Source: a virus | DNA length: 21,601 nt | IMG/VR virus record: IMGVR_UViG_3300048908_000082 | Span: 1-21,601 of that record | Direction: 5' to 3' (one strand) | In this document: in pieces, positions 3,419 to 8,120 of the stretch | How the letters are laid out: every line of letters starts with the position of its first letter | How positions within the stretch are numbered: the stretch's first letter is position 1 | Translations under genes and position numbers: made by a program | The notes under the pieces: model-generated | Databases searched by the model: none | Seen by the model: only the letters and a program-made list of their open reading frames with translations | Told to the model about the DNA's origin: nothing

Positions 3419-3661
3419 TTACTGACGGTCAAACCAGGGCGGCAGCTTGGCGGCCCAGGCGTCGCGCTTGGCCACGGTTTCCGGTGGCGCCGCTTCGAAC
3501 GGCAGGCAGTTGCGCGCCATCTCGGCAGACACGAAGATGACCGGATCGGCGCGCAGGCAGCGCCCGAAGCCGCGGCGGGCGGCGGCCGGGTCGCCCTTGA
3601 GATCCAGCCCGGTGCAGTCCAGGCACCGGATCCCGCGGGTTTCCATCTTCGGCGCCGTCAT
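3419..3661 (-). CDS. Cys-rich small phage protein, 80 aa, possible zinc binder
   Basis: An 80-residue protein with paired cysteines (GIRCLDCTGLDL near the N-terminus) and two more in FGRCL and RNCLPF. This spacing suits a small zinc-ribbon-like fold. The ATG at 3661 overlaps the stop of the helicase-loader-like gene by ATGA. The same frame is open much further upstream, but that is a shadow of the neighbouring gene. It is the last gene of the leftward early operon, ending about 50 bases before the packaging-unit promoter region. Function unknown; zinc binding is inference from the Cys pattern. Confidence 0.75.
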   Translation of the reverse strand: MTAPKMETRGIRCLDCTGLDLKGDPAAARRGFGRCLRADPVIFVSAEMARNCLPFEAAPPETVAKRDAWAAKLPPWFDRQ

Positions 3662-4539
3662 GGCGCTGGCTCTCCAGCCTGGCGCACCACCTGATCCTCG
3701 GCCCGGCGCAGCTGCACGCCGTCGGCCATCCGGATGTAGGCCTGATGCTCGCGCACGCGGCGGTTCAGGTTGGCCTTGAACTGCTCTTCGCTCTCCAGGC
3801 GCCGGTCGATCGCCGCTTCCACGGCCCGGTTCTTCGCTTCCATCGAGTCGGCCAGCATTTTCTTGACGGTGGCCAGCTGCGCGCGCGCCTTGTCGCGCTC
3901 TTCCGGTGCCATTTCTGGCACTTTTGGACCGGACAACAGCAGGCGCTCGCCCGACGGCACGGCATCCGGTCCATCTTCGGGCGGCGGCAGCATGTTCATC
4001 ACCGCCTTGGCCGGCAGCCTGCCCTGCTCTACCGCGCGCGTCAGCACCCGGGCGTGCTGGCTCCTGTCGAATCCCAGGTGCACGGACCACACGGCCGGGC
4101 GTTGCCCCTTCCTGGCCGCGGCCACCAGCGCCTCGTAGACTTCCAGGAACGTCTTGCGCGCGGAGATCGCCCCGCTGGACTCCAGCACCGGCCGGGCCCG
4201 GGCGAATGCTTCCGCGCACTCGGCCGTCCACACGATCGTGTCGTTCTCGTCCCGGCTGGTCAGGGCGATGGCCCAGGCTTCCTCGGCGCCCGGGCGGCCA
4301 TCGTTCCCCTTGGCGCCCTCAATGAAGCTGACCACGTCGGCCGGCACAGGGGTGAAGGTGCCGCGCTTGACGTGGTAGCCCAGCGCCTCGCGCACCATCG
4401 GCAGCGGGTATTCCTCCAGCGCCTTGAACCACATGGCTTTCGCCGTCGGGCTGACCAGCTTAGCCTGCGGCGTCTTCCCCAGGATGTCGAACGTCCCATC
4501 GAGCAGCGCCGCGAATTCGTCGAAGTCATTCTGCCGCAT
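3658..4539 (-). CDS. Probable replication partner of the O-like protein (helicase-loader-like)
   Basis: This is 293 residues. The N-terminal 75 (AMWFKALEEYPLPMVREALGYH, then FTPVPADVVSFIEG) resemble the small helical domain of phage replicative helicase loaders and inhibitors, where a bulky W-x-x-L pattern precedes a Pro-rich F-x-P-x-P-A-D-V. The middle is unfamiliar. The last 90 residues are highly charged and probably coiled coil. It starts 14 bases inside the end of the O-like initiator gene, the same order as lambda O-P. Recruitment of the host DnaB helicase is inferred from that synteny and the N-terminal pattern. No Walker motif is visible, so it is not a DnaC-type ATPase. Confidence 0.6.
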   Translation of the reverse strand: MRQNDFDEFAALLDGTFDILGKTPQAKLVSPTAKAMWFKALEEYPLPMVREALGYHVKRGTFTPVPADVVSFIEGAKGNDGRPGAEEAWAIALTSRDENDTIVWTAECAEAFARARPVLESSGAISARKTFLEVYEALVAAARKGQRPAVWSVHLGFDRSQHARVLTRAVEQGRLPAKAVMNMLPPPEDGPDAVPSGERLLLSGPKVPEMAPEERDKARAQLATVKKMLADSMEAKNRAVEAAIDRRLESEEQFKANLNRRVREHQAYIRMADGVQLRRAEDQVVRQAGEPAP

Positions 4540-5362
4540 CTATCGTCCTCCCGTCGTCGTTGTTCTGGCCACCGAACAGCAGCGCCCGGGCCGCATCGGT
4601 AGAACTCTGCTGCTGCGTGGCCAGCGCCTGGTGCGGTGCGGCCGGGCTCGGCGTCGGGATCTGGCCAGCGCCGCGCCCGCTGCGCACGGTCAGCGTGTCC
4701 CACTTCTGGCGCAGCTTGCTCGGCGACTCGATGTTCGCGCACCAGAACGAATCTTTCTTCGCCCACAGGAACAGCTCGCAGATCCCGGCATGCGTGCGGC
4801 CGTCGATCTCGCGCATCAGGCGCACGTCGTTGGCCCAGGTATCCCAGTTCGGCTCTTTCGCCGTCGCGTTCACCTTGCGCACCAGTTCAAACATCCAGCG
4901 CGCCGCCTTGTGGTCATCCTCCGTTCCATGATGCTTTTTCGCCGTTTTCCCTGGTGTTGGGTTAACTGGTGGTTCTATTGGTGGTTCTATGATGGTTATG
5001 GGTGCAGATCCTGCGGGGGTGGGGTGAACAGGCTGCGGGGGTGGTGGTGCAAAATCTGCGGGGGTGGGGTGCAAACCCTGCAGGGGTGCAGATTCTGCGG
5101 GGGTTGGAAACTTGGCCACGAAAATGCGGTAAAGGGTGCTCCGACCGCTGCGCAGGTTGCGCTGCAGGATCCCCGCGGTCTCCATGTCCGTGATGTGGCC
5201 CTGCACGGCGCGCTCGCTCATGCTGCACTTGCGGGCGATCGTCGGGATCCCCGGGTAGCACTCGCCCTCGTCGTTCGCGTTGTCGCACAGCGCCAGCAGC
5301 ACCATCTTGGGCCCGGATCGCAGGCTGGTTTCCCAGGCCTTGGTCATCAATTTAATGCTCAT
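4526..5362 (-). CDS. Lambda O-like replication initiator
   Basis: This is 278 residues in three parts. The N-terminal 85 form a winged helix (GPKMVLLALCDNANDEGECYP, then IPTIARKCSMSERAVQGHI), the HTH_36 type used by phage replication initiators. Residues 86-140 are a Pro/Ala-rich linker with HPTPA repeats. Residues 148-225 (ARWMFELVRKVN, TWANDVRLMREIDGRTH, FLWAKKDSFW) match a domain common in O-like phage proteins. The linker DNA carries iteron-like repeats that cross reading frames, as expected if the origin lies inside the initiator gene as in lambda. A weak Shine-Dalgarno precedes the ATG at 5362; the Met at 5347 is an alternative start. The downstream gene looks like its helicase-loading partner. 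Confidence 0.75.
   Translation of the reverse strand: MSIKLMTKAWETSLRSGPKMVLLALCDNANDEGECYPGIPTIARKCSMSERAVQGHITDMETAGILQRNLRSGRSTLYRIFVAKFPTPAESAPLQGLHPTPADFAPPPPQPVHPTPAGSAPITIIEPPIEPPVNPTPGKTAKKHHGTEDDHKAARWMFELVRKVNATAKEPNWDTWANDVRLMREIDGRTHAGICELFLWAKKDSFWCANIESPSKLRQKWDTLTVRSGRGAGQIPTPSPAAPHQALATQQQSSTDAARALLFGGQNNDDGRTIDAAE
4967..4990. repeat. Tandem 12-bp direct repeat beside the iterons
   Basis: TGGTGGTTCTAT occurs twice with no gap (4967-4978 and 4979-4990). It encodes IEPP-IEPP in the initiator linker. It lies in a locally AT-richer stretch (about 4925-5000) directly downstream, in coding sense, of the iteron-like repeats, where lambda has its AT-rich unwinding region. Confidence 0.6.
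5001..5108. repeat. Five iteron-like repeats (candidate replication origin)
   Basis: The core CTGCGGGGGT occurs at 5011-5020, 5033-5042, 5056-5065 and 5095-5104, with a one-mismatch copy CTGCAGGGGT at 5078-5087. The usual left flank is GCAGAT or GCAAA. Spacing is 22, 23, 22 and 17 bases. Copies 1, 3 and 5 are read in one frame (PTPA), copies 2 and 4 in another (PQ and LQ). The conservation is therefore of DNA rather than protein. Confidence 0.65.
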
Positions 5363-6709: not shown

Positions 6710-7170
6710 ATGAGTCCTTTCTGTTTTAGCTTTTCTTGGGTCAGGCCGATGGCCCGTTCGAACTTGGCCAGCATCGCCTCTTGCGTCAGCCCGGGCGGCA
6801 GCGGGCGCCGGCCGTCGACGATGTCATGGCAGTAATGGCAGCCATACGCGCCTTCGGTGTCGGGCGCCTTCAATCCCATGCCCTTGCCCGCGGCCAGCTG
6901 GTTGGAATGGCACAGCACCGTGGTGGCCGGGTCGTGCTGACCACCAGGCAGCTGGATCAGGCAGTCTTCGCCGCGCGCCGACTTCCGGATCGGCGTCATC
7001 TTCGGACGGCTCGACTTCATCCTGGCGCGTGCTTTTGCCGGTTTCTTTTCACTCGGCGATCGCGCGAAATTTGCCGCTTTCGTTGCCGCTACCGTGCGCA
7101 GGGTGCCTGTGCGGTCCATCGGCTTCTTGGCGCGCAGCGGCGTCTTGCGTTTCAGTTCGCTGCGCTTCAT
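6706..7170 (-). CDS. YbcO/DUF1364-like putative nuclease
   Basis: This is 154 residues. The first 58 are a basic, probably disordered leader rich in Lys/Arg/Ser. The family core starts at IRKSARGEDC (C70) and contains TTVLCHSNQLAAGKGMGLK (C87, H88) and YGCHYCHDIVDGR (C111, C114, H115, D116). That Cys/His layout fits the zinc-bound nuclease fold of YbcO from the E. coli DLP12 prophage (DUF1364). It overlaps both neighbours (ATGA with the DUF5131 gene, GTGA with rusA). DUF1364 and RusA often sit together in lambdoid nin-type regions. Nuclease activity is inferred from family and was not seen directly. Confidence 0.85.
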   Translation of the reverse strand: MKRSELKRKTPLRAKKPMDRTGTLRTVAATKAANFARSPSEKKPAKARARMKSSRPKMTPIRKSARGEDCLIQLPGGQHDPATTVLCHSNQLAAGKGMGLKAPDTEGAYGCHYCHDIVDGRRPLPPGLTQEAMLAKFERAIGLTQEKLKQKGLM

Positions 7171-8120
7171 GGCCGCCCCGGGTAGCCGTCATGCTGCACG
7201 CCATCCAGCTGGCGCCCGGCCAGCTTCTTGCCGAAGTGCTCGACCACGACGCCGTTGTCGTTCTTGCCTCCCCAGGTGAACATGTGCGTGGTCTTGCCCA
7301 TGTCGAACGCCTTTTCGGTCGGCGCCCACTCGCCCCACTGTTTGAACAGGAACGGCACGCCGGCACGGTTGCACTGGTCACGCAGGTGGCGGGCCCAGTC
7401 CGGATGCATCGGCCGCGCGCCCGGGCCACTCTCGCCGCCAACGATTACCCAGTGCAGGCCGGCGCCGGTCCTGGTGATGATCGTGTCGCAGTAACCATCG
7501 AGATCCTGGCGGTCATCATCGCGCGCCGGGCGCCACAGTTTCAAGTCGACCTGTCCCAGCAGCGGCTCCATCGACAGGAAGCGCACGCGGGCCGGCAGCG
7601 CCAGCAGCTTCGGGATGTCGCGGTCGGCCTCCACCTGGTTGACGATCGACGCACCGATCCAGACGTTCGGCCACGGCGCATCCTCCCAGCGCGTGATCCC
7701 GCCCGACAGCTCAGCCAGCGCCTGGTCGAGCATCGCGTGCACGTTGCCGATCCGCTTGGTCAGCAGCAGCCAGTCAAGATTCGGCGTCGCAGCGATCAGT
7801 CGCAGCAGGTCGACGCGCCAGGCCGGGTCGACCGCGTTGTCGAACACATCGGCCAGGCTGGCGCAGAAGACGCGCTGCCGGCGGCCATGTTCAGCCATGA
7901 AGGCCGCGGCCTGCAGGTTCCACAGCATCGGCTTGTTCCAGTTCGCTGCGCTGGTGCGGCGGCGCGGCGCGCCCGGTCCCCAGTTGATGGCCTGGCCACC
8001 AGCAAACCGTGCATTGCGGGTCTCGGCGTAGCAGTGATCACAACCCGGGCCAACTTTCTGGCAGCCCTCCCAAGGGTTGAACGTGTGGTCGGTCCATTCG
8101 ATTTTGCTGTTCTCGCTCAT
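7167..8120 (-). CDS. Phage Gp37/Gp68 family (DUF5131) three-Cys protein
   Basis: This 317-residue protein starts KIEWTDHTFNPWEGC and has the family's three cysteines in C-x6-C-x2-C (C20, C27, C30), reminiscent of radical-SAM iron-sulfur binding. Other family marks are FCASLADVFD, WLLLTKRIGN, WIGASIVNQ, RFLSMEPLLG, WVIVGGESGPGARP and PFLFKQWGEW. The family is widespread in phages and its reaction is unknown. Some members are encoded next to a partner called TcmP; no TcmP-like gene is seen here. The ATG overlaps the DUF1367 stop as TAATG. Family call firm, function open. Confidence 0.9.
   Translation of the reverse strand: MSENSKIEWTDHTFNPWEGCQKVGPGCDHCYAETRNARFAGGQAINWGPGAPRRRTSAANWNKPMLWNLQAAAFMAEHGRRQRVFCASLADVFDNAVDPAWRVDLLRLIAATPNLDWLLLTKRIGNVHAMLDQALAELSGGITRWEDAPWPNVWIGASIVNQVEADRDIPKLLALPARVRFLSMEPLLGQVDLKLWRPARDDDRQDLDGYCDTIITRTGAGLHWVIVGGESGPGARPMHPDWARHLRDQCNRAGVPFLFKQWGEWAPTEKAFDMGKTTHMFTWGGKNDNGVVVEHFGKKLAGRQLDGVQHDGYPGRP

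Follow-up and report, generated by a model that had tools for sequence, protein, structure and literature searches.

The window analysed here, an IMG/VR phage record of 21,601 bases, carries on its minus strand an O-like replication initiator gene of 278 amino acids (4526-5362), whose best PHROG match is family 391, 'replication initiation O-like' (E=1.8e-68, residues 1-237). The protein begins with a winged-helix DNA-binding (wHTH) domain (residues 1-84; 5111-5362, minus strand), in which Pfam recognises HTH_36 (E=2.7e-10, residues 19-66) and which is the predicted reader of the iterons described below. In the AlphaFold model, residues 1-80 form helices and a two-stranded wing at pLDDT 88-98, and the top Foldseek matches of the initiator are wHTH proteins, including, with weak E-values, the RepA-type initiator domains 4pql and 4pt7. 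The C-terminal domain (residues 140-237; 4651-4945, minus strand) is homologous to that of lambda O, matches PHROGs 277, 2514 and 4880, and is predicted to recruit a helicase or its loader; residues 146-240 are ~45-50% identical to lambda-type O proteins, lambda O itself among them (tblastn). The tblastn similarity to lambda O is confined to this part of the protein. A lambda O-type N-terminal DNA-binding domain was not found, Pfam showing HTH_36 only, and a sequence-level search of the initiator gave no AAA+ domain. The linker of the initiator is proline-rich and disordered in the AlphaFold prediction.

The next gene in the operon (3658-4539, minus strand) overlaps the stop codon of the initiator gene and is a candidate helicase loader. 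It belongs to PHROG 6028, a family with no functional annotation, and is kept beside the initiator in homologues L001-L009. It matched no Pfam family, Phage_lambda_P included, in a search in which lambda P as the positive control scored 6e-62, and its AlphaFold model (pLDDT 50) was too poor for use. Genes for RusA, YbcO, NinB-like, Exo and RecT-like proteins, terminase and tail spike surround the initiator in a lambda-like layout. The early operon also encodes, between YbcO and the NinB-like gene, a DUF5131 protein (7167-8120, minus strand; Pfam E=1e-90).

Within the initiator gene, a repeat search revealed an array of five ~22-bp iteron units with a palindromic core, reading ACCCCCGCAGnnTCTGCACCCC in coding sense (5000-5104, minus strand), which is kept in homologues L001-L009. 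On the plus strand the core appears as exact CTGCGGGGGT at 5095-5104 (the first copy in coding sense), 5056-5065, 5033-5042 and 5011-5020 (the last, adjoining the AT-rich element), and with one mismatch (CTGCAGGGGT) at 5078-5087. The five near-identical copies at spacings of 22, 23, 22 and 17 bp that had been reported in a first-pass annotation were thus recovered at 5011-5104, one of them with a single mismatch. No further match to CTGCGGGGGT at 0-1 mismatches was found in the window, including upstream of the initiator gene. The same annotation had placed copies 1, 3 and 5 in one reading frame and copies 2 and 4 in another, and this is indeed the case: the coding-sense frames are 0, 2, 0, 2 and 0, and the two frames translate to HPTPAxxAP and PPPPQxxHP.

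Selection on the peptide alone, it had further been argued, would not keep such a DNA repeat. When the protein was kept and codons were drawn from the phage's own usage, none of 2000 synonymous resamples contained five or more copies of any 10-mer at up to one mismatch (mean 2.7, maximum 4), and the CTGCGGGGGT motif, present five times, averaged 0.6 copies in this null. In the homologues L001-L009 there are three or four related units of 22/23 bp, again in both frames. The array is therefore maintained as DNA, independent of frame, and the argument holds. The proposed check of whether homologues conserve the peptide without the DNA repeat was run and spoke for the earlier interpretation: the homologues retain the DNA unit, in two frames, and the layout persists in relatives with other proteins and other repeats. 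In more distant relatives an array lies at the same place with unrelated sequence, for example GGTGTCACC, CCCCCGAACGACGTTCACCCC or AGTGAAGAGGCTACACC. The unit core in the window, GCAGAwTCTGC, is a near-perfect palindrome, with an excess of dyad symmetry for the array of z = 4.7. Palindromy as a rule for the iterons of all relatives was dropped; z exceeds 2 in 38% of their arrays.

On the C-terminal-coding side of the array lies an AT-richer element (4961-5001, minus strand), a candidate DNA unwinding element (DUE). At 40% GC it ranks lowest among the 40-mers of the gene and at the 0.7th percentile within the window. It contains three same-strand repeats: AACCATCA at 4990-4997, 2 bp after the last iteron; AACCACCA at 4979-4986, 11 bp from the first repeat; and AACCACCA again at 4967-4974, 12 bp further on. 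This agrees with the earlier description of an AT-richer stretch with a tandem 12-bp repeat following the array in coding sense, the 12-bp repeat being two copies of TGGTGGTTCTAT, with a related third copy, TGATGGTT, at 11 bp distance; together the repeats span 4967-4997. Where the window and its homologues have the same amino acid in this element, the codon is identical in 62 of 62 cases, as against 59-76% in other parts of the gene; codon pairs are not independent, so the figure indicates strongly but is not to be taken as a probability. With its HTH_36-type N-terminus, its array and the same-strand AACC(A/G)TCA-type repeats (AACCATCA and two AACCACCA variants), the window fits a wider class of HTH_36 initiators.

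Because relatives with very different initiators carry the AACCRTCA element, viral contigs were scanned for the DNA element alone, and an HMM of the N-terminal domain, with seeds from the protein search only, was applied to the resulting loci. A same-strand HTH_36-type initiator gene lay upstream of tandem GAACCATCAnnnGAACCATCA (12-bp period) in 86 of the 120 matches listed. For AACCATCAnnnAACCATCA (11-bp period), 101 of 138 listed loci fell within HTH_36-type initiator genes, always on the same strand and inside the open reading frame. All three frames are used by these AACCATCAnnnAACCATCA loci (62/13/31), and an 11-bp period cannot repeat a peptide. The EPSxEPS peptide recoded with a GAG codon occurred in initiator genes in 0 of 120 matches listed, and the reversed motif in 1 of 120. 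Copies of the element outside the search pattern also occupy the three frames (21/12/11), nearly all neighbours being 10-13 bp apart, and element copies number 164 on the forward strand and 0 on the reverse. The use of all frames, the failure of the recoded peptide and of the reversed motif, and the restriction to one strand together show that the AACCRTCA repeat is selected as DNA. In approximately one fifth of the listed loci whose upstream DNA was long enough, no HTH could be recognised. Tandem copies of GAACCATCA at L055 (7322-7462), L092 (4126-4218) and L098 (10327-10371), where no HTH_36 was recognised nearby, represent either diverged initiators or unrelated repeats.

A further sample was selected by protein only. 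Among its 67 non-redundant initiators, the motif occurred in tandem in 32 and at least once in 48, while several of the others had near-variants of it, and the commonest 8-mer of the linkers was AACCATCA. The tandem motif was absent from equal-length upstream, downstream, reverse-strand and reversed-motif controls of this sample. O-like PHROGs were matched by 60 of 60 sampled initiators through their N-terminal part, and the other families matched varied. In 124 of 130 element-bearing genes a significant repeat array lies between HTH and element, with 69 different best 7-mers; the order of the parts is fixed. At 50% HTH identity these 130 initiators fall into 48 clusters, among which the iterons differ. 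As HTH identity falls from >90% to <30%, shared array k-mers drop from 0.85 to <0.1 and shared element k-mers from 0.56 to 0.28, remaining flat thereafter; the set was chosen by its element, and only the fall in array k-mers is unbiased. In the element-bearing genes the GC content of the element averages 0.40, compared with 0.56 on either side, and its coding strand is rich in A and C.

The AACCRTCA element is widely shared but not universal. Other initiator clades carry other tails of ~12 bp, such as AACCAGTCA (in initiators beginning MSMxLMxKAM), CCTAACAAT (MSAKYTF) and GATCCRTCA (MSTKLTGYVW and similar). At large distance the tail thus tracks the initiator clade, which, in a small sample, favours a phage-encoded reader. 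The first ten residues of the initiators in L176-L192 (MSIxLMxxAW, MSMxLMxKAM, MSAKYTFxAW, MSTKLTGYVW) seem to vary with the type of 12-bp tail and may offer a clue to its reader. In Klebsiella phage phiKp_30 (L189; LC768498.2, 1201-1576) we observed an unannotated HTH_36-type initiator gene, cut by the start of the record, whose linker contains the unit GGTGGGGCAGGAGCTGCCCGG, which has a palindromic core, in four identical tandem copies. Listed as a Pseudomonas aeruginosa plasmid, a circular record of 57 kb (L628; NZ_CP124637.1, 562-1272) carries an HTH initiator gene with an AACC element, followed by dnaB, and an AACC-type origin may thus sustain a phage-plasmid.

In host genomes the element is rare, being found in 1 of 299 scanned, with 0 for the reversed control; a genome survey based on PF13730 was set aside as too heterogeneous. 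Of the best ten phage matches of a short-query blastn search with the element, nine were 'primosomal protein I' genes of Pseudomonas and the tenth was a Pseudomonas phage region without annotation. The other matches of that search, an antisense one of 18 bp on an IncX1 plasmid among them, look like chance. Neither the tandem sequence nor the EPSIEPS/EPSLEPS peptide appears in any paper of the open-access literature searched, and for described in-gene origins of the HTH_36 class the same literature gave only work on lambda/Stx phages and plasmids.

In lambda and the Stx phages, gene O has iterons and an AT-rich region at its middle; all the iterons are protected by O, and the strands open in the AT-rich part (PMC7466680; PMC5043065). 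The putative origin in the window resembles that of lambda in lying inside the initiator gene, with palindromic iterons of ~20 bp in the linker and, on the C-terminal side, an AT-rich stretch with strand asymmetry; the C-terminal domains of the two initiators are homologous. The two differ in that the window has an HTH_36 N-terminus, an unrelated iteron sequence, a next gene other than lambda P, and phased AACCRTCA repeats, which the AT-rich part of lambda lacks. The earlier suggestion of a lambda-like in-gene origin is supported by the order of wHTH domain, iterons, AT-rich element and C-terminal domain and by the homology of the last, with two qualifications, the HTH_36 N-terminus and the neighbouring gene. 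Iteron plasmids with 13-mer DUEs (RK2, F, P1) and RepA-type wHTH initiators likewise combine phased iterons beside AT-rich repeats with an initiator of wHTH type. In the window, however, the putative origin is coding sequence in the initiator linker, the initiator has no Rep_3/RepA family match, and the repeat of 11-12 bp has the shared AACCRTCA core. In the basal unwinding system of bacterial origins, DnaA boxes adjoin DnaA-trios (PMC6669920). There, too, double-stranded initiator sites abut a repeated, strand-specific opening element, but the window has no AAA+ initiator of DnaA type, the sequence and period of its repeat differ, and strand capture is putative here, so that the likeness is a working analogy only.

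We consider it highly probable that this locus is the phage's replication origin, placed within its own initiator gene in the manner of lambda, with phage-specific iterons followed by a DUE element bearing a widely shared, helically spaced repeat. As the lambda and Stx origins share this order of parts, we infer a similar course of events for the window. The N-terminal wHTH domain would bind the ~22-bp palindromic iterons, probably as dimers; the iterons lie about two helical turns apart and would present one face of the DNA, while being translated as an unstructured linker. The assembled complex would then strain the DNA on the C-terminal-coding side, where the AT-richer, strand-asymmetric element, whose AACC(A/G)TCA-type repeats follow one another at one helical turn (10-13 bp), is predicted to open, and the lambda O-like C-terminal domain may recruit a helicase or loader to the opened strand. 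Binding, melting and origin firing at the array and element are predicted here from the arrangement of the parts, and a factor that reads the AACCRTCA repeats is likewise presumed. GC skew along the window tracks the orientation of the genes and gives no origin signal, this 21.6-kb fragment of a temperate-type phage being too short for a skew test.

Could the array and the AACC element be nothing more than a low-complexity linker protein, with HPTPA and EPSxEPS repeats spread by slippage and having no function as DNA? The linker is proline-rich and predicted to be disordered, and linkers of this kind often repeat. The repeats nevertheless stand in different frames, the array was never regained in the 2000 synonymous resamples, synonymous codons in the element are frozen (62/62), and the EPSxEPS peptide written in other codons never occurs in initiators among the 120 matches listed. 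For the AACC element this explanation is already refuted, and for the locus as a whole we regard it as exceedingly improbable. It is also very improbable that the array is an operator through which the wHTH protein represses early transcription by way of its own gene, with the real origin elsewhere. Such folds are mostly those of repressors and the array does lie within the gene, but copies are missing upstream of the gene and elsewhere in the window, the protein is O-like with a C-terminal domain of the predicted helicase-recruiting type, and the array never occurs without an AT-rich element after it, a part that an operator can do without.

More weight is due to an explanation that concerns the element only, namely that a host DNA-binding protein which aids opening recognises the AACCRTCA repeats in double-stranded form, instead of the phage complex reading them as a melting element. 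The constancy of the repeats while initiators and iterons change would suit a host factor, as would their spacing of one helical turn on one strand. Against it, the tails differ in other clades whose hosts are similar (Vibrio, enterobacteria), an indication that the reader is encoded by the phage, and we judge a host-protein site unlikely, if still a serious possibility. To our knowledge, AACCRTCA does not resemble the consensus sites of DnaA, IHF or Fis.

Returning to an origin opened at the AACCRTCA element, one may speculate further, with a confidence somewhat short of even, that initiators of the HTH_36 class share an opening code that does not depend on the initiator: AACC(A/G)TCA repeats at intervals of one helical turn, next to private iterons and read as single strand by one conserved factor, be it the N-terminal helix of the initiator, the loader or a host protein. 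Specificity and opening would then be separable modules. If the interpretation of the locus as an origin is right, a single DNA signature would suffice to locate origins, with an accuracy of tens of bases, in hundreds of temperate phages and prophages that are as yet uncharacterised, and dozens of natural initiator-iteron pairs would become available for deriving rules of recognition. The element would be a phage counterpart of the 13-mer and DnaA-trio elements, and the question of which sequence-specific information an unwinding element bears would become directly testable.
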